64,000 nucleotides of DNA. Source: Halohasta litorea (GTDB lineage: Archaea; Halobacteriota; Halobacteria; Halobacteriales; Haloferacaceae). The translations under genes and the position numbers were made by a program. Positions 37,141-44,498 of this stretch are shown piece after piece (positions within the stretch are counted from its first letter, which is position 1; each line of letters begins with the position of its first letter). The stretch spans positions 124,001 through 188,000 of the forward strand of contig NZ_JANHDJ010000007.1 of the NCBI RefSeq assembly GCF_024494645.1, read 5' to 3'. The notes below the pieces were generated by a model. It did no database searches. It was given only the letters and a program-made list of their open reading frames with translations, and was not told the origin of the DNA.

Positions 37141-37875
37141 TCAGTCGACGGCAGCGCTCGGCGCGGATTCGGTGTGGGCGACCTCGTCGAGGACACTGTG
37201 GCTTCGGAGCAACACGAAGCCGAAGCCGACCTTGGCGGTGAGGTCGAGCACCATGAACGCCGCCGTCTCGACGTACAGCGGGATGAGCCCGATCGTCCCC
37301 TCGGTGCCGAGGATCCAGACGACGGGGTAGGCCAGCCACAGCACGATCAGCATATTGCGGAGCGTGGTCGTCAGGCTCCGTACCGACTCGGTCTGTCTGC
37401 TGGCGGCCTCGTTGAGCGACTGGACGAGGAAGTACAGCAGGAACAACAGGAGTGCCGTACTGATTCCCCACCAGACGATCCGGATCGCGGGGGTGGCCGC
37501 CAGCGCACCGATCAGCCCCGTCACGATCATCAGCACGTCGAGGCCGACGAGCGTGTAGATCGTGTTCCGACTCGCCTGTGCGAGCAAGGCGAGATCGATC
37601 AACAGCAGCGGCGTCGTGATCAGCCAGTCGGCGTAGCGTGCCCAGTAGATGTCCAACACCTGTCCGGCGACTTCGATCTCGGCGAGCCCGAACCCGGTCG
37701 CCATCGAGAAGTAGGCGACCGCTGCTGTCGCGGGGATGAAGATAGTGAGGACGTAGAACCGCTGTTGTTCCTCATCGGAGACACCCCAGCCACGGGCGAT
37801 AAAGCCCAACATCCCGAGTGTCATCCCGATGGTGCCGATCCACAGCCATATCGACTCACTACCTGGTGTTGCCAT
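37141..37875 (-). CDS. bop: Bacteriorhodopsin (light-driven proton pump)
   Basis: The 244-residue seven-helix retinal protein keeps every key residue of bacteriorhodopsin. Helix [19 protein letters not shown] has Arg80, Asp83 (the Asp85 counter-ion), Thr87 and Asp94 (the Asp96 proton donor), with Leu at the Leu93 tuning site as in green pumps. Asp113 matches Asp115. The release-group glutamates are Glu192 and Glu203. Asp211 and retinal Lys215 ([11 protein letters not shown]) are in helix G. It should pump protons outward and feed the ATP synthase. ATG 37875 ([10 protein letters not shown]) was chosen over 37905, because it precedes helix A at the family position. No blh/brp retinal gene is in the window. 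Confidence 0.96.
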
Positions 37876-37902
37876 ACCACATGACAGTACGGTGAGAATC
37901 GG

Positions 37903-37928
37903 CAAATAGGACTTACCTGACTAGTCAG
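37903..37928 (-). promoter_or_regulatory. bop promoter: ACTAGT palindrome (Bat-type UAS) plus TATA-like box
   Basis: A perfect 12-bp palindrome CTGACTAGTCAG is at 37917-37928, 42-53 bases before the bop ATG. Next to it toward the gene is CTATTTG (TATA-like, about 28-33 bases before the ATG). The plus-strand context ACCTGACTAGTCAG agrees well with the Halobacterium bop-regulon upstream activating sequence as I remember it (ACC..ACTAGT..GG), the site bound by or dependent on Bat. Confidence 0.65.
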
Positions 37929-37952: not shown

Positions 37953-37968
37953 AGCCCAAAAACGGGCT
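37953..37968 (-). terminator. Hairpin with T5 loop at the end of the nucleotidyltransferase-HAD gene
   Basis: On the minus strand AGCCC-GTTTTT-GGGCT forms a five-base-pair stem with T5 in the loop and overlaps the TAG stop codon of the upstream gene. It separates that gene from the bop promoter 25 bases further on. Confidence 0.4.
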
Positions 37969-39514
37969 ACAGCTCGGTCGACTCGGCGACCGAGGCGGTC
38001 TCGACGGGATCTCCAGCAAACAGTTCACCGACAGAATCGACGACCAGCGAGGGCTGTTGGTCGGCGGTCTCGATATCCCGGCGGGTGGTCTCGCCCGACA
38101 ACACCGACACCGATCCACAGCCCAGCCGCTCGGCGAGTTCGATATCCGTCGACAGCCGATCGCCGACGATGACGACCTCCGAGGGATCATACCCCTCACG
38201 CTCCAAAACGTGGTCGACCATCCCAACCGATGGTTTGCCGAAGACGTGACTCGGCTCGCGGCCGGTGGCCGTCTCGACCAGCGCGGCGATCGACCCACAG
38301 TCGGGGACCAACCCCGCCTCGGTCGGACAGACCCTGTCGCCGTGGGCGACGAGGAACTCCGCGCCCTCGCGGATCGCAAGTGTGGCCGCGGCGACTTTCT
38401 CATAGGTGAGTTCGCGGTCGAAGCCGACAACCACGGTTTCGGGATCGGTCGCCGCTGGCTCGATTCCGGCCTCCGAGATCGCCCCGCGCATCGCCTCAGT
38501 ACCGACGACGTAGCTCGCCTCGATCCCGTTGGTCCGGAGGTAGTCGATCACGCCGTCAGTTGAGAGGATGATCTCGTCGGGGTCGGCGTCGATCCCGAGC
38601 GAGGCGAGCCGGTCGGCGTAGGTCGGTTTCCACCGAGAGGAGTTGTTCGAGAGGAAATACACGTCGACGCCTGCGGCCCTGAGTTGGTCGACGACGTCGA
38701 CAGCGCCGTCGATGGGCGTCTCGTCGAGATAGATCGTGCCGTCGAGATCGAAGAAGACCGCATCCTTCGAGCGGAGGTCGCCCAGCGACGAGAAGGTGCG
38801 GTCGGCGGCCAACAGATCGGCCTGCTCGTCGATCTCGACCCACTCGGCCCCCTCGATGTCGACCGGTTGCACGTCGTGGGAGCCCGTCTGCAACAGTTCG
38901 TCGAGAGCGAGTTCGGTCCAAGCGGTGTACTCCTCGTCGATCTCGATCCGACGGACGATCCGGTCGAACAGTTTGGCCGAGGTTACGGCCGAAAACCGGT
39001 AGCAGTCGATCGAGGTCGCGGCGGCCTCCTCAGGCGAGAAGTCCTTGGAGATCCCGTCGACTGCGCCCCCCTCGTCGACGGTGATCTTCATCGCCTCGGG
39101 ATCGTACTGCTCGGCGTCGACGGCGATCCCACTGTGGTCGTCGATTGCGGCCAGCCGCTCTATGACCTCGGGCTCGAAGACGACGTCGCCGTTGCTGAGG
39201 ACGAACGGCTCGCCAGCGACCTGCTTTCGGGCGCAGTACAGCGAGTACATATTGTCCGTGTTGGCGAAGGCCTCGTTGTGGAGCACCTCGATGTCGACCG
39301 ACAGCTCCGACGACAGACGATCACAGAGCGCTTCGATCCGATCGGCCATATAGCCAGTCACCACGTAGACGGTCTCGAAGCCCGCCGCGTCGTAGGCGCG
39401 AAGCTGGTGCTCGCCGATGGGGATCGAGTCGACTGTCACACAGGCTTTCGGCTGGTCGATCGTCAGTGGCCGGAGCCGTGAGCCGGTTCCGGCCGCCAAG
39501 ATAACTGCGTTCAT
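37967..39514 (-). CDS. Fusion: LicC-type nucleotidyltransferase + NagD-type HAD phosphatase
   Basis: This is a 515-residue two-domain protein. Residues 1-245 are a sugar/choline-phosphate nucleotidyltransferase: LAAGTGSRLRPLT (6-18), PK at 22-23, the LicC-like NEAFANTDNMYSLYCAR, and LSNGD with the metal Asp at 110. Residues about 250-500 are a HAD-IIA (NagD/AraL) phosphatase: FFDLDGTIYL (Asp256, Asp258), FLSNNSS, HVFGKPSVGM and VIVGDRLSTD. LicC-type enzymes make CDP-activated polyols or choline from CTP; HAD-IIA members remove phosphate from small phosphopolyols. Fused, and beside a CDP-glycerol transferase-family gene, it may make or regulate a CDP-polyol. The substrate is inferred, not shown. 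Confidence 0.85.
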   Translation of the reverse strand: MNAVILAAGTGSRLRPLTIDQPKACVTVDSIPIGEHQLRAYDAAGFETVYVVTGYMADRIEALCDRLSSELSVDIEVLHNEAFANTDNMYSLYCARKQVAGEPFVLSNGDVVFEPEVIERLAAIDDHSGIAVDAEQYDPEAMKITVDEGGAVDGISKDFSPEEAAATSIDCYRFSAVTSAKLFDRIVRRIEIDEEYTAWTELALDELLQTGSHDVQPVDIEGAEWVEIDEQADLLAADRTFSSLGDLRSKDAVFFDLDGTIYLDETPIDGAVDVVDQLRAAGVDVYFLSNNSSRWKPTYADRLASLGIDADPDEIILSTDGVIDYLRTNGIEASYVVGTEAMRGAISEAGIEPAATDPETVVVGFDRELTYEKVAAATLAIREGAEFLVAHGDRVCPTEAGLVPDCGSIAALVETATGREPSHVFGKPSVGMVDHVLEREGYDPSEVVIVGDRLSTDIELAERLGCGSVSVLSGETTRRDIETADQQPSLVVDSVGELFAGDPVETASVAESTEL

Positions 39515-39791
39515 GAGTTCACCACCGGGTGGATAGGGGATGGACCCAAAAGTGCGGGGCCGAATTCACGGACGACCGGACAAGTAAGCCGCAGCTACTC
39601 GGCAAAGACGGGAGCGTCTCCGTAGAGACGCCGATCCTATATATACCGAATACGGCAGGCTACGCCTGTTTGGTGACCACACGGTAGCCGGAATCCCGAC
39701 CAGCTGCCGAATGAGCACTCTCGGAGGGTGATCCAACCGAAGGCAGTCATCGCGCGCGTACGGGAAGCGGCGGAATTCGTAGCGGCGGGCC
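39515..39791. other. Structured intergenic region with TATA box and hairpins
   Basis: This 277-base gap has no gene. It has a perfect hairpin GCGTCTC-CGTA-GAGACGC (39614-39631) and CTATATATACC (39638-39648) that could be the TATA element of the minus-strand fusion gene, giving it a leader of about 100 bases beginning in the hairpin. Another foldable block lies at 39653-39709: outer stem CGGCAG/CTGCCG with an inner CAGGC-TAC-GCCTG hairpin. Confidence 0.5.
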
Positions 39792-40688
39792 CTACGGCGA
39801 AGCGTTCGGGTCGGATCGCTCGTGAGGAGGACAGACTCCTGGATAGTCGGCGATAATCCCGTCGACGCCCGCCCGTCCGAGGGCGGCAGCCTGCTGCCAC
39901 GTCGTCACCGTCCAGGCGTTGACCGCTCGGCCCTCCGCGTGGGCCAGCGCAACGAGATCGACGTCGTCGAACGAGCCCGAAACCGGGCCGTCGATCGACA
40001 GCGCCGAGCCGGTCACCATGTTCCACGGTGGGTGTATCGCCTCGACGTCGTACCGGCGGCTGAGTTCCAGTCCGGTGTCGACCGAATCGTAGAACACCGA
40101 GGCGATCGGCACCGATGGTGCAAGCTCCCGGGTCGACGCCAGTGCGCCCTCATAAAACGACGAAACCAACAGGTCGTGAGCGCCGTCGGTTGCGATATCG
40201 AGCACCCGGCCGACGAACTCCCGCCAGCGATCGGTCGCCGCCGCAAGCGTAGATTCGTCGAGCGTTTCGGCGAACCGGAGCTCCGCGCTCCCCGGGTTTT
40301 TTAATTCGATATTAACCGTACACTCGGGAGGGATTGCCGCCAGCACGTCGCTCAACAGCGGCACCGACTGGTCCGTGCCGAGCACGCTGTAGCCCGCGAT
40401 CGTGTCGTAGGACAGCTCCCAGAGGTCCGTTTCGGCAACCGATTTCGGGGCGTTGGTCAGTCGCGAGAGGTCGTCGTCGTGAAAGACGACGATCTCCCCC
40501 TCAGCGGTCGGCATCACGTCGATCTCGACAGTCGACACCTGGCCGTCGGCCACCGCGGCTTCGACTGCAGCCACCGTGTTCTCCGGGTAGACCCCGGCGA
40601 AACCGCGGTGTGCGATGCCGTTCGGTTGGGCTGCCGCCTGCTGTTCGGGCGCGGTCGTAAGCGTCCCCTGCGGGTTCCCCGATGTCAC
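39792..40688 (-). CDS. Glycerophosphodiester phosphodiesterase
   Basis: The 298-residue TIM-barrel enzyme is of the GDPD/UgpQ family, which splits glycerophosphodiesters into an alcohol and glycerol phosphate. The catalytic residues are all visible: His27-Arg28 (IAHRGF), Glu36 (YPENTVAA), Glu55 and Asp57 (VEIDV), His70 (VFHDDDL), and Glu in VNIELK. No signal peptide is present at this GTG start, so it acts inside the cell. The start is supported by a TATA-like TTTAAGTATA about 20 bases upstream. In this cluster it may turn over glycerol-phosphate polymer or lipid headgroups and recycle glycerol phosphate. Confidence 0.9.
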   Translation of the reverse strand: MTSGNPQGTLTTAPEQQAAAQPNGIAHRGFAGVYPENTVAAVEAAVADGQVSTVEIDVMPTAEGEIVVFHDDDLSRLTNAPKSVAETDLWELSYDTIAGYSVLGTDQSVPLLSDVLAAIPPECTVNIELKNPGSAELRFAETLDESTLAAATDRWREFVGRVLDIATDGAHDLLVSSFYEGALASTRELAPSVPIASVFYDSVDTGLELSRRYDVEAIHPPWNMVTGSALSIDGPVSGSFDDVDLVALAHAEGRAVNAWTVTTWQQAAALGRAGVDGIIADYPGVCPPHERSDPNASP

Positions 40689-40723
40689 TAGGGGAGCCTT
40701 CGGTGACGTATACTTAAATTTCT

Positions 40724-42058
40724 CTATCGGAACGTATCAGAGACCGTGGGTTGCATCGCGGCTGGTCGGGGATCAGCGAGGCGAGTCGGTGGCTCCGAGT
40801 CGGCGAACACGAGCCTCGAAACCGCATCGTAGACCGCCTGTGATGCGGTTCCGGGCGGGACGGGACAGAACCGCCTTCGGAGCTCTCGGCGGTCGGCCGC
40901 GTACGGGTCCTCACCACCGGTCGCGGCGTCGAGGGCTTCTGTTAGGGCCTCTTGGAGTTCGTCGGCGTCGGTCGCAATCGGGCCGGGTGTAACCGACTCG
41001 TAGGCGAAGTAGAAGCCGCGGCGCTCGGTGTACGTCGACTGATCGTACGGAAAGAAGACGATCGGCCTGTCGACCGCGAGGTAGTCGAAGAATACCGACG
41101 AGTAGTCGGTGACTAACACGTCAGCATGGGGGACCACGAGGTAGGGATCGACCGAGGCGGGCAGCCAGTGGACGTGGGAGTGGCTCTCGGCGGCGGTCAC
41201 CGGCTCGTCGGGATGGGCCTTGATGTAGAGGTGTGCCCCGCGTGCTGCGAGCAGATCGCCGACGGCGGCGGTGTCGAAGGCTTCGATGAAGGACGTACCC
41301 GCCGCGCGGTAGGTCGGCAAATAAAAGACGAGCTTGCTGTCGGTGGCCTGTGATTCGATACGGTCGAGGAGCGACGCGTCGGCGGTCAGCGTTGCGCCCT
41401 CGATATCGTTGGCAAACACGTCGGTGCGTGGATACCCCGTCACGACAAACCGGTCGGGATCGATACCGAGCCCCGACGACAGTGGCTCGATGGCCTCGGT
41501 CGACGGGGCGGTAACGAGATCAATTTCATCGGCCATAGACGCGTGACAGCGCCGAACGGGCCACGGCTGGTCGGACCACTCGGCGTCCCAGGCGATCGTC
41601 TTCAGCGGCAGGCCGTGCCAGAGTTGGACGAGCCGCGCGCCTGCGGTGCTACCCATATGAACGTCCCGAAGCCCCTGTGTGACGAACACGACGCCAGCCC
41701 GGAGCGTGAGCAGGCGGCCGCGCAACGAGTGGGCACGGTAGGCCTCGTAGCCCTGCTGTTGGAGCGTTTCAACGACAATTTCGTTTTTAGAGAGCCACAC
41801 GGGACGGATCGACGGGTCGTTGACGGCGACCCAGAGGTAGAGATATTTGGCGTTGTCGGCGAACGCCGTGCCGCCACGTGCACCAAAGACCCACAGTCGC
41901 TGGTCGCGGCTCCAAAAGCGAGCCAGTTGGCCGACGACGAGATAGACGAACCACTGCCACAACAGATCGAGGTTCGACCGCCACTGTTCGGATCGCTGCC
42001 ACACGGAATCGACCCACCCGCGAAACTGCGCGCTCAGTCGACGGAGAATGGTAGACAT
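40724..42058 (-). CDS. CDP-glycerol glycerophosphotransferase family (TagB/TagF-like)
   Basis: The 444-residue enzyme is a teichoic-acid-type polyol-phosphate polymerase or primase. It shows the family motifs WHGLPLK (147-153), FVVTGYPRTDVF, YLPTYRAAG, YIKAHPDE (278-285) and VLVTDYSSVFFDYL (314-327), including the two His and the DYSS acceptor region. The N-terminus is amphipathic with a hydrophobic stretch (LDLLWQWFVYLVVGQLARFW) that could bind the membrane. It would transfer polyol phosphate from a CDP-activated donor to a membrane acceptor. In haloarchaea the polymer and donor are unknown. It overlaps the downstream end of the isomerase gene by 25 bases, so the two are co-translated. Confidence 0.9.
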   Translation of the reverse strand: MSTILRRLSAQFRGWVDSVWQRSEQWRSNLDLLWQWFVYLVVGQLARFWSRDQRLWVFGARGGTAFADNAKYLYLWVAVNDPSIRPVWLSKNEIVVETLQQQGYEAYRAHSLRGRLLTLRAGVVFVTQGLRDVHMGSTAGARLVQLWHGLPLKTIAWDAEWSDQPWPVRRCHASMADEIDLVTAPSTEAIEPLSSGLGIDPDRFVVTGYPRTDVFANDIEGATLTADASLLDRIESQATDSKLVFYLPTYRAAGTSFIEAFDTAAVGDLLAARGAHLYIKAHPDEPVTAAESHSHVHWLPASVDPYLVVPHADVLVTDYSSVFFDYLAVDRPIVFFPYDQSTYTERRGFYFAYESVTPGPIATDADELQEALTEALDAATGGEDPYAADRRELRRRFCPVPPGTASQAVYDAVSRLVFADSEPPTRLADPRPAAMQPTVSDTFR

Positions 42059-42834
42059 GCGTCGAGTTTCTGCTTACTCAAACGCATGTAGTCCTTATCA
42101 AAGGTGTATGCCTCAACGGAGAAGGTTCCTTCCCAGTCAGTATCGAGTGCCCCAAAGATCGTCTCGAAGTCGGTCGTCCCTGAGCCGACCGGGACGTGTT
42201 CGTCGCGGGCTTGTCGGGCGTCGTTGACGTGGACGTGGGAGACCCGCTCGCGGTGCTCGTCGAGGAAGGCGGCGGTGTCGGCCGCCGAATACCCCGAGAC
42301 GCGCGCGTGGCCGGTGTCGACGGTCAGCGAGGCGTCGGTTTCGGCCAGCACCTCATCGATGGTGCGGATCGAAAACACGTCGTCCGGGAGGTTCTCCACA
42401 CAGAGTTCGATCCCGTGGGCGGTGGCGTAGGCTTCGAGCTCCCGGACTGAGGCGAGGATGCGGGGTTTGGTCCGCCGCTGGCTCCACTCGGGTTCGGTGG
42501 CGTGGGTGCTGGCGTGGAGGACGGCCTTTTCGGTCCCGAGTGCAGCGGCCGTATCCAGACAGGCCCGCAGCTCCCTGATCGAGCCCTCGCGGACCTTGTT
42601 TCGGGGGGTCCCCAAATCGAGGTCGACGAAGGGGAGATGCACCAGGCAGTCGATATCGTTTTCGGCGAGGGCGGCGGTGATCGCCTCCCGGTCGAGGCCG
42701 GTTCTCTCGGAGGCACCGTCCATATAGAGTTCGATGAAATCGTAGCCCAACTCGGCGGCCCACTGGATCGACTCCAGCGGCGTGACCGCTCCAGTGTGTG
42801 TCTGGGTCACGAACCCGACTCGTGGCGTAGTCAT
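42034..42834 (-). CDS. Sugar phosphate isomerase/epimerase family (AP_endonuc_2 TIM barrel)
   Basis: The 266-residue protein has the xylose-isomerase-like TIM barrel pattern: GFVTQTHTGAVTPLESIQWA, YDFIELYMDG, HLPFVDLDLGTP, VENLPDDVFSIRTIDEVLAE, LTVDTGHARVSGY and HVHVNDARQARDEHVPVGSG. The metal-binding Glu, Asp and His of this family can be placed in these segments. It may isomerise a sugar or polyol phosphate for the same pathway as the overlapping CDP-glycerol transferase-type gene. Its substrate is unknown. The gene starts 90 bases from the divergent glycosyltransferase. Confidence 0.85.
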   Translation of the reverse strand: MTTPRVGFVTQTHTGAVTPLESIQWAAELGYDFIELYMDGASERTGLDREAITAALAENDIDCLVHLPFVDLDLGTPRNKVREGSIRELRACLDTAAALGTEKAVLHASTHATEPEWSQRRTKPRILASVRELEAYATAHGIELCVENLPDDVFSIRTIDEVLAETDASLTVDTGHARVSGYSAADTAAFLDEHRERVSHVHVNDARQARDEHVPVGSGTTDFETIFGALDTDWEGTFSVEAYTFDKDYMRLSKQKLDACLPFSVD

Positions 42835-42924
42835 AGGTGGTTATTATAATCCCACTTACAAAGCCACTCTGGCTTGCTACCGGCGTGTCGGCATCCTTAG
42901 GAGCGATCCGACCGAAGGAATCGT

Positions 42925-43833
42925 ATGACGTGGCCGCCGACAAGTGTGATCCTGCCGACGGTGCGCCCGACCGACGTCGTCGACGAGATCGCCACCCAAC
43001 TCGCCGCCGAAGACGAACTGCTCGTCGTCTGTGATACCGAAAGCGATCCGATCGCAGGCACGGTCGACTCGTTACCTGAGGAGGTGCGGCTCGTTGTCGC
43101 CGGTGAGCCGGAGGGTTGTTCCGGAAAGGCCAACGCCATCGCCGCGGGGATGGCGGCCGCCGACAACGAGCGGCTGGTCTGGACCGACGACGACTTCCAC
43201 CATCCGCCGGAGTGGCTTGAGGACCTCCAGGAGGACTACGACCGACAGGGGCCGACAACCGAGGTGCCGTATTTCGTCGGCCGCGATCCGTTATCAAAGC
43301 TCCTGGAACCGATGTACATGATGGGCGCGACGGCAGGGTTGACACTGATCGACAAACCGTGGGGCGGCGCGGTGATCTTCGAGCGGGACGATCTCGACGA
43401 AGCGGCTTTTATAAGCGATCTCCGGCAGACAGTCAGCGACGACGGGCTGTTGGGGGCGTATCTCGACGTGACGCCGGTCAAGCGCGTCCGGCGGGTCGCG
43501 GTCGGCGGCACAGTAAGCGAGAGCCTCGAACGCAACACCCGGTTCATGCAGATCGTCCAGTACTTCTCGCCGTATCCCGTCGTGACGGTGCCGCTTTCGA
43601 CCTTTTATTTCGCGTGTTGTCTCCTGTTTCCGGTTCCGGTGGCGCTGCTGTCGACCGCGGCGATGGCGGCGGTCTATGCGTACTTCGGCGTCTTTCGGTG
43701 GACCGTCCTGTTGACGTATCCAGGACTCATCGCCCAGTTCCCGCTGTTGTTGTATGGGTTGTCCAGGAGCTTCGTCTGGGGCGGGCGGCGCTACCACTGG
43801 CCCGAGCGGTTCGAGGTGATAGTCGAGGGCTAA
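42925..43833 (+). CDS. Membrane-anchored family 2 glycosyltransferase
   Basis: The 302-residue enzyme has a GT-A fold N-terminal domain. It starts SVILPTVRPTDVVDEI, has a SGKANAIAAGM nucleotide-sugar segment and the acidic motif WTDDDFHHP (Asp88-90), then a Glu/Asp-rich acceptor region. Two to three membrane helices close it (PYPVVTVPLSTFYFACCLLF onward). It is likely to act at the cytoplasmic face with a polyprenyl or lipid acceptor. It is divergent from the isomerase gene and contributes to the same surface-polymer locus by position. No exact substrate can be given. Confidence 0.85.
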   Translation: MTWPPTSVILPTVRPTDVVDEIATQLAAEDELLVVCDTESDPIAGTVDSLPEEVRLVVAGEPEGCSGKANAIAAGMAAADNERLVWTDDDFHHPPEWLEDLQEDYDRQGPTTEVPYFVGRDPLSKLLEPMYMMGATAGLTLIDKPWGGAVIFERDDLDEAAFISDLRQTVSDDGLLGAYLDVTPVKRVRRVAVGGTVSESLERNTRFMQIVQYFSPYPVVTVPLSTFYFACCLLFPVPVALLSTAAMAAVYAYFGVFRWTVLLTYPGLIAQFPLLLYGLSRSFVWGGRRYHWPERFEVIVEG

Positions 43834-43880
43834 CGGCGGGATCAGTATCGTTATACTGTTGCTACCGAAGCAGCAAACCG

Positions 43881-44498
43881 ATGACTCACAGCCGACGACG
43901 GGTGCTGACGCTGACAGCCGCGGGCGTGGGTGGATCGCTCGCTGGCTGTCTGGGCAAGGGTTCGACCGACGAGAGTACCGACTCCGGCCTGCCGAGGGCG
44001 ACGCTGCGGACGAGTATGGGCGAGGTCGTGATCGACCTCTACGGGGACCGCGCCCCACGGACGGTCGAGAACTTCATCGGACTGGCGACGGGCGCGAAAG
44101 CGTGGACCGATCCCGAAACAGGCGAGGGGGTCGACGGCGAGGCCTTCTATCAGGACGTGCCGTTCCACCGCGTCATCGAGGGGTTCATGATTCAGACCGG
44201 AGATCCAACAGGGACCGGCCGCGGTGGACCGGGCTACCAGTTCGACGACGAGTTCCACGAGGAGTTACGCCATGACAGCGCGGGCGTGGTCTCGATGGCC
44301 AACTCGGGGCCGGACACAAACGGCTCGCAGTTCTTTATTACACTTACTGAAACCCCGCATCTCGACGATGTGCATTCGGTGTTCGGAGAGGTCACTGAGG
44401 GGATGGACATCGTTCGTGAGATCGGCAGCGTCGAGACTGATGGGAGTAATCGGCCAGTCGAACCGGTGGTTCTCGAATCGGTAGCGGTCGACGAATAA
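43881..44498 (+). CDS. Tat-exported lipoprotein cyclophilin (peptidyl-prolyl isomerase)
   Basis: The 205-residue protein has a Tat signal (SRRRVLTLTAAG) and a lipobox LAGC (Cys23), so it is exported folded and lipid-anchored outside the cell. Residues 35-200 are a cyclophilin-type PPIase: TLRTSMGEVVIDLYGDRAPR, PFHRVIEGFMIQTGDPTGTG (catalytic Arg), NGSQFFITLTETPHLDDVHS and FGEVTEGMDIV. It speeds proline isomerisation in exported proteins. The start at 43881 is set by the Tat motif. It is convergent with atpB, 29 bases apart. Confidence 0.92.
   Translation: MTHSRRRVLTLTAAGVGGSLAGCLGKGSTDESTDSGLPRATLRTSMGEVVIDLYGDRAPRTVENFIGLATGAKAWTDPETGEGVDGEAFYQDVPFHRVIEGFMIQTGDPTGTGRGGPGYQFDDEFHEELRHDSAGVVSMANSGPDTNGSQFFITLTETPHLDDVHSVFGEVTEGMDIVREIGSVETDGSNRPVEPVVLESVAVDE

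Follow-up and report, generated by a model that had tools for sequence, protein, structure and literature searches.

Four adjacent minus-strand genes of Halohasta litorea (37967-42834) are supported by comparison between genomes as one functional unit, more than chance neighbours, and on balance they probably encode a single pathway of CDP-alcohol activation, transfer and turnover. This reading is based on the families of the proteins, their intact catalytic residues, the co-conservation of the genes, the overlaps between them and the leaderless GDPD. All positions refer to the window, the 64,000-nucleotide stretch that was analysed. A sequence-only reading had assigned five open reading frames to one path; all five were confirmed in their coordinates and protein families, and each has the haloarchaeal coding signature of high GC3 and low GC2:

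37967..39514, minus strand: LicC-like nucleotidyltransferase (NT)/HAD-IIA fusion (Pfam NTP_transf_3 + Hydrolase_6/Hydrolase_like)
about 38795-39514, minus strand: NT half of the fusion (residues 1-240), LicC-like
about 38015-38767, minus strand: HAD half of the fusion (residues 250-500), HAD-IIA/NagD-like phosphatase
39792..40688, minus strand: GDPD-family glycerophosphodiester phosphodiesterase (PF03009, E 1e-32)
40724..42058, minus strand: TagF/TarF-like CDP-alcohol phosphotransferase (PF04464 Glyphos_transf, E 3e-60, full model)
42034..42834, minus strand: AP_endonuc_2 TIM-barrel protein (PF01261, E 5e-37)
42034..42058, minus strand: overlap of the TIM-barrel and transferase genes, 25 bases by coordinates
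42925..43833, plus strand: GT2/GT21-like membrane glycosyltransferase, divergent from the four minus-strand genes

The overlap between the TIM-barrel and transferase genes was likewise as described; the matching overlap is 16 bases in two other Halohasta genomes, and translational coupling is likely.

Conservation and genomic setting of the genes

Co-occurrence was counted over one set of 195 genomes of the order. The transferase is present in all 31 genomes bearing the fusion, against 23 of the 164 others (Fisher 1e-21), and TIM-barrel orthologues of at least 53% identity occur in 26 genomes with the fusion and in none without it (Fisher 1e-27), both tests ignoring shared ancestry. Synteny of the four minus-strand genes extends to about 20 other genomes; the cluster recurs in Halohasta, Haloprofundus, Halorussus and Haladaptatus, with a TIM-less version in one further family. 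Across the cluster-bearing genomes three gene orders are found: TIM-transferase-GDPD-fusion, transferase-GDPD-fusion-TIM, and transferase-fusion-GDPD with the GDPD reversed and no TIM. In most Halorussus and Haladaptatus loci the fusion gene shares 4 bases with the TIM gene, and the two remain a pair where the transferase sits on another contig. Nearly all fusion-linked transferases group together in a tree. In genome G162 the transferase that accompanies the fusion is very divergent and lies about 28 kb from it, and no TIM-barrel match reaches the search threshold. Divergent transferases in other families lie next to, or overlap, a separate LicC-like NT gene, which ties this kind of NT to the transferase. 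A scan of genome contigs with the transferase matched only Halohasta salina, because the scan patterns reach close relatives only. Relatives of the GDPD are widespread in genomes without the cluster.

The proposal of a five-gene path, for which recurrence of the gene set in other genomes had been offered as a check, is thus borne out for four genes, which are co-conserved in three orders with overlaps and with the transferase in 31/31 fusion-bearing genomes, but not for the membrane glycosyltransferase. This gene is divergently transcribed and adjoins the cluster in the window's own genus only; its relatives, found in 60 of the 195 genomes, co-occur weakly with the cluster (p = 0.05, shared ancestry ignored), and it was rejected as a member of the pathway.

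The cluster lies beside V-ATPase, bacteriorhodopsin or sucCD genes and outside glycan loci; the neighbours of related NT-transferase pairs include glycosyltransferases and a flippase. No exporter is conserved in the cluster neighbourhoods, and linkage-unit, reductase and kinase genes are absent from the conserved unit. Haloprofundus and f5 have SDR genes close to the cluster (only 45% identical to each other), and Halorussus and Haladaptatus have another SDR type; these were rejected as the missing reductase, no single orthologue being conserved.

Families and catalytic residues of the encoded proteins

Pfam matches place NTP_transf_3 at residues 3-132 and HAD-IIA at residues 253-498 of the fusion, and the two halves are joined in 31/31 carrier genomes of the order. 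Its assignment as a LicC-type NT/HAD fusion is upheld by sequence comparison: among PDB structures the NT half comes closest to LicC (1jyk, E 9e-14), with the CTP:inositol-1-phosphate cytidylyltransferase 2xme also among its solved relatives, and the NTP_transferase fold is accompanied by conserved G-x-G-x-R and PK motifs. Models of sugar nucleotidyltransferases that use UTP or dTTP (TIGR03992, AglF) score on this half as well. The HAD half is closest to 1vjr (E 1e-47), exceeds the HAD-IIA cut-off (TIGR01460, 145.3 against 100.15) and keeps the DxDGT, NNS, K and GDRxxTD motifs. As no TagD-type CTP:glycerol-3-phosphate enzyme passes the cut-off in this genome (26.4 against 165.4 bits for the TagD model), the LicC-like domain is the likely maker of the CDP donor here.

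The transferase, the sole PF04464 gene in the genome, matches that family over its full length (204.5 bits, gathering cut-off 22.1) and appears to keep both catalytic histidines, in line with its description as a CDP-glycerol glycerophosphotransferase-family enzyme. It falls below the cut-offs of the named equivalogs: the best NCBIfam match is TarF (100.6 against 550 bits), followed by TarL (52.6 against 1000), of which only positions 339-528 of 562 are covered, and TarB (39.8 against 500). H148 aligns directly with TagF H444 and is invariant in 22 sequences. H282 lies two columns from TagF H584 in the phmmer alignment yet is invariant in a K-x-HP context in 22/22 sequences, from which we infer that the two are equivalent. 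A hydrophobic N-terminal segment suggests membrane contact. At 390-475 aa the transferases are of TarF/TagB size and lack the polymerase-type N-terminal part of TagF/TarL, so that addition of one unit or a few seems likelier than synthesis of a long polymer.

The place of a GDPD in the gene set is sustained by its PF03009 domain with conserved catalytic residues (H27, R28, E55, D57, H70, E128, K130, W259). No signal peptide was found on the cluster GDPD; many paralogues elsewhere have Tat-like leaders, the cluster copies being leaderless. The enzyme is predicted to be cytoplasmic, and together with the HAD domain it looks like a cytoplasmic turnover arm. Pairing of GDPD and HAD genes elsewhere was set aside as weak support for sequential action, with a HAD-IIA neighbour at 3 of 21 other GDPD loci.

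Nine His/Asp/Glu positions of the TIM-barrel protein (H66, H107, E147, D173, H176, H202, D211, H213, E241) are invariant in 36 sequences and complete an endonuclease-IV/CbiR-type metal-ligand set; by the alignments made here and the known endonuclease IV site they correspond to the endonuclease IV ligands. The best NCBIfam model is CbiR, at 96.1 below its cut-off of 105, and no cobamide genes were noticed in the cluster or among its neighbours, so that identification as CbiR was rejected. The AF2 model has a pLDDT of 92.7. Foldseek places tagatose/allulose epimerases and UlaE at the top, ahead of endonuclease IV, and in several genomes paralogues adjoin the gene of a PfkB sugar kinase. Given its ligand set, the protein may be a metallo-phosphoesterase rather than the sugar-phosphate isomerase first proposed, a role that was not established. 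As judged from the alignments, the catalytic residues of the cluster enzymes are intact.

Proposed route, alternatives and known systems

In the proposed pathway the LicC-like domain would couple CTP with a small phosphorylated alcohol (X-P) to give CDP-X. Because the conserved unit has no reductase or kinase, the most economical candidate for X-P would be glycerol-1-phosphate supplied by the G1P dehydrogenase common to all archaea, an enzyme family present in the genome. At the inner membrane face the TagF/TarF-like enzyme would transfer X-P to an acceptor, most likely a surface glycan or glycolipid precursor, adding one or a few units through a phosphodiester. The cytoplasmic GDPD would cleave such phosphodiesters, probably aided by the TIM-barrel enzyme, if flux runs in this direction, and the HAD domain would dephosphorylate the freed X-P, so that synthesis and turnover would be encoded together. 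The most specific version, in which CDP-glycerol made from G1P by the fusion decorates a surface or lipid acceptor and is salvaged in the cytoplasm by two phosphodiesterases and a phosphatase, is tentative and on its own unlikely. Such CDP-glycerol, built on sn-glycerol-1-phosphate, is the mirror image of the bacterial compound. Counted against a single pathway are the scores of the NT half with sugar nucleotidyltransferases, the position outside glycan loci, the Foldseek ranking and PfkB-linked paralogues of the TIM-barrel protein, the GDPD relatives without a cluster, the G162 exception and the neglect of shared ancestry in the Fisher tests.

The same enzymes could instead build a long, teichoic-acid-like chain of polyol phosphate at the cell surface, as the transferase family includes the TagF and TarL polymerases and both catalytic histidines are retained. 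This is quite unlikely, and the polymer product first envisaged is disfavoured, given a transferase of single-transferase size without the N-terminal extension, a unit without exporter or linkage-unit genes, and a genome with one PF04464 gene and no TagD above cut-off. A sugar route, with the TIM-barrel protein as epimerase or isomerase, the HAD domain as sugar phosphatase, the NT as sugar-phosphate nucleotidyltransferase and CDP-alditol or a related donor for the transferase, would accommodate the Foldseek ranks, the PfkB neighbours, the NT scores and the SDR genes flanking the cluster in some genera; it appears decidedly unlikely, since D211-x-H213 and H66/H107 follow the pattern usual at endonuclease IV/CbiR-type sites, no model outscores CbiR and the SDRs are not one conserved orthologue.

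Transfer to a small-molecule acceptor, giving a soluble solute or reserve degraded by the cytoplasmic GDPD and HAD, is very unlikely. Di-myo-inositol phosphate, which hyperthermophiles make from CDP-inositol, offers a comparison, and the leaderless GDPDs, the relationship to 2xme and the position outside glycan loci fit; but the N-terminal segment of the transferase points to the membrane, to our knowledge characterised PF04464 enzymes all use membrane- or polymer-bound acceptors, and haloarchaea balance salt mostly with K+. That the genes are neighbours with separate functions, their order kept by descent only, would agree with the phylogenetically uncorrected tests and the commonness of the GDPD; it is highly improbable and largely refuted by a set that stays intact though rearranged into three orders, in three families and among differing flanking genes, with 4-base overlaps and pairs kept together where the cluster is split.

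If the pathway reading is correct, CDP-activated phospho-alcohols are produced in haloarchaea and joined to cell components, as is otherwise known chiefly from the teichoic acids and capsules of bacteria, and the enzymes could be a mirror-image (G1P) version of the bacterial ones. With its invariant NT-HAD fusion and cytoplasmic phosphodiesterases, the system looks like a self-contained unit of synthesis and recycling; literature searches found no description of it, nor of CDP-glycerol or glycerophosphotransferase in haloarchaea. Haloferax volcanii, one of the control genomes, gave no PF04464 signal; this may explain how the system has escaped notice in the usual model organism, and the species would make a clean host for gain-of-function experiments.

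The transferase shares with TarF, TagB and TagF a full-length PF04464 domain, conserved catalytic histidines and a TDYSS motif, but it belongs to an archaeal host with G1P lipids, is linked to cytoplasmic phosphodiesterases, and lacks the TagD-type synthase and in-unit exporter of the bacterial systems. CbiR, a cobamide phosphodiesterase (PMC7733943), and endonuclease IV have the same metal-ligand residues as the TIM-barrel protein, for which CbiR is the best-scoring model, although it scores below the CbiR cut-off and no cobamide genes were noticed in the cluster. The NT half aligns best with LicC, sharing the RLRPLT...PKA and N..NMYSL motifs, but unlike LicC and IPCT it is in every haloarchaeal case joined to a HAD-IIA phosphatase. 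Another CTP-dependent small-alcohol cytidylyltransferase is Gtp2, from the CDP-2-glycerol route of the pneumococcus. The HAD half belongs to the same HAD-IIA family (E 1e-31) as the mycobacterial glycerol-3-phosphate phosphatase 4i9f (Rv1692, of polar-head recycling), and is likewise linked to a GDPD; in the haloarchaea, unlike the mycobacterial case, it shares one protein with a nucleotidyltransferase and one cluster with a transferase.

Layout and conservation of the cluster

Re-reading the window sequence recovers all five open reading frames that the sequence-only reading had joined into a polyol-phosphate polymer pathway, and Pfam and NCBIfam models agree with the families assigned to them. 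The locus is laid out as follows:

37141-37905, minus strand: bacteriorhodopsin-family gene, on the same strand as the fusion gene and 61 bases downstream of it
37967-39514, minus strand: fusion of a LicC-like nucleotidyltransferase (NT; NTP_transf_3) and a HAD-IIA domain
39792-40688, minus strand: GDPD
40724-42058, minus strand: TagF/TarF-like transferase (Glyphos_transf, PF04464)
42034-42834, minus strand: TIM-barrel protein (AP_endonuc_2)
42925-43833, plus strand: glycosyltransferase of the GT2/GT21 type
43881-44498, plus strand: judged by eye to be a cyclophilin-like peptidyl-prolyl isomerase gene with a lipobox (LAGC), lying after the glycosyltransferase and before the V-ATPase operon; the open frame spans 43359-44498, and its start is probably at 43881

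The TIM-barrel gene shares 25 bases with the transferase gene, and gaps of 35 and 277 bases separate the transferase from the GDPD and the GDPD from the fusion, respectively. The same cluster is found in Halohasta salina, with protein identities of 78-89%. V-ATPase genes lie on both flanks. In genome G168 (locus L111), V-ATPase subunit D and a GDPD flank a related bacteriorhodopsin gene, so that part of the site is common to both genomes although the other cluster genes are missing there.

A presence/absence survey of 195 genomes of the order found the transferase in 54 and the fusion in 31, the latter never split into separate NT and HAD genes, while the TIM-barrel, counted at 53% identity or more, was found in 26. 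Relatives of the GDPD and of the glycosyltransferase are present in 114 and 60 genomes, respectively. The transferase accompanies the fusion in every case (31/31), as does the fusion the close TIM-barrel (26/26), in raw counts with shared ancestry left in. The co-conservation expected of the proposed pathway is observed for fusion, transferase and TIM-barrel, with the GDPD kept in the set, but does not extend to the glycosyltransferase; its occurrence among the 195 genomes is nearly independent of that of the cluster genes, which argues against its membership of the pathway.

Despite the counts not being corrected for ancestry, the gene set is kept in three arrangements:

TIM-barrel, transferase, GDPD, fusion: Halohasta and probable Haloprofundus
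transferase, GDPD, fusion, TIM-barrel: Halorussus and Haladaptatus
transferase, fusion, GDPD (reversed), without the TIM-barrel: family f5

Taxon names were obtained through plasmid contigs, by which G102 matches Halorussus vallis (100%), G194 matches Haladaptatus pallidirubidus (100%) and G149 has Haloprofundus salinisoli as its nearest named match (90%); names for whole genera are an extension from these matches. The fusion and TIM-barrel genes overlap by 4 bases in most Halorussus and Haladaptatus loci, and in G017, G041, G161 and G176 they are adjacent, with the transferase on another contig. The four-gene unit is real and conserved.

Association of nucleotidyltransferase and transferase

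Nearly all fusion-linked copies form one group in the transferase tree, the exceptions being a fusion-linked copy in G162 and a nested copy without a fusion at L051. In several other haloarchaeal families, a stand-alone LicC-like NT gene adjoins or overlaps a divergent PF04464 transferase gene, and HAD, GDPD and TIM-barrel are missing (L061-L071, e.g. L063:8459-10401 and L070:8392-10323). The neighbourhoods of these pairs contain glycosyltransferase-like genes and, at L066, also a polysaccharide flippase. NT and transferase thus belong together more widely than in the four-gene cluster.

More distant NT-HAD fusions, with 34-36% identity, occur in glycan-type neighbourhoods in another lineage of the phylum (L097:1254-2756, L098:9979-11481 and L099:6048-7550). 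Their NT half is visibly degenerate, AANDN replacing AAGxGSR and the metal-binding Asp being lost, which suggests that it is dead.

The TIM-barrel protein and the GDPD

The TIM-barrel protein had been read as a sugar-phosphate isomerase. Nine residues (H66, H107, E147, D173, H176, H202, D211, H213 and E241) are kept in all 36 TIM-barrel sequences; judging by alignments to solved relatives and by what is known of endonuclease IV, we take these to match its ligands. The best model is CbiR, at 96.1 against a cut-off of 105, and haloarchaeal paralogues score similarly. A high-confidence AF2 model matches epimerases, MJ1311, UlaE and endonuclease IV, so that the fold does not separate an isomerase from a phosphoesterase. 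The isomerase label lacks support. Paralogues with 44-49% identity adjoin a PfkB-type sugar kinase gene (L078:8177-10169, L083:9548-11374, L086:8422-10445 and L087:9630-11469), and the protein may accordingly still have a sugar role.

The catalytic residues of the GDPD are conserved. Cluster GDPDs have no leader, whereas many paralogues elsewhere have Tat-like leaders (RRTFL; L110:5937-6941, L112, L113, L115, L117, L118, L121 and L128), pointing to paralogues that would be exported, unlike the cluster type. GDPD genes are also seen adjoining a stand-alone HAD-IIA phosphatase gene (L042:74-2184, L110:5937-7897 and L116:5745-7854); in G161, the GDPD and HAD-IIA genes overlap by 4 bases.

Probable activation and transfer of a phospho-alcohol

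The unit most likely activates a phospho-alcohol as its CDP derivative and transfers it, with turnover built in. LicC is the best solved relative of the NT half, and the HAD half belongs to the canonical HAD-IIA phosphatases; its kinship with NagD and with phosphoglycolate and glycerol-3-phosphate phosphatases fixes no substrate. No TagD-type enzyme scores above the model cut-off in the window's own genome, where the G1P dehydrogenase family is present, and no kinase or reductase lies within the conserved unit. On the simplest reading, the small phosphorylated alcohol would be a ready-made metabolite, for which glycerol-1-phosphate is the obvious archaeal candidate. The unit is apparently new to the literature: our search found no account of one, though papers may exist beyond the set searched.

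The transferase retains a TDYSS motif and a counterpart of H444, the catalytic histidine of TagF, and a second invariant histidine is likely to be equivalent to H584. TarF is its best-scoring named model, yet the score falls far under the equivalog cut-off. The resemblance to TarF extends to short length, which counts against the polymer originally proposed.
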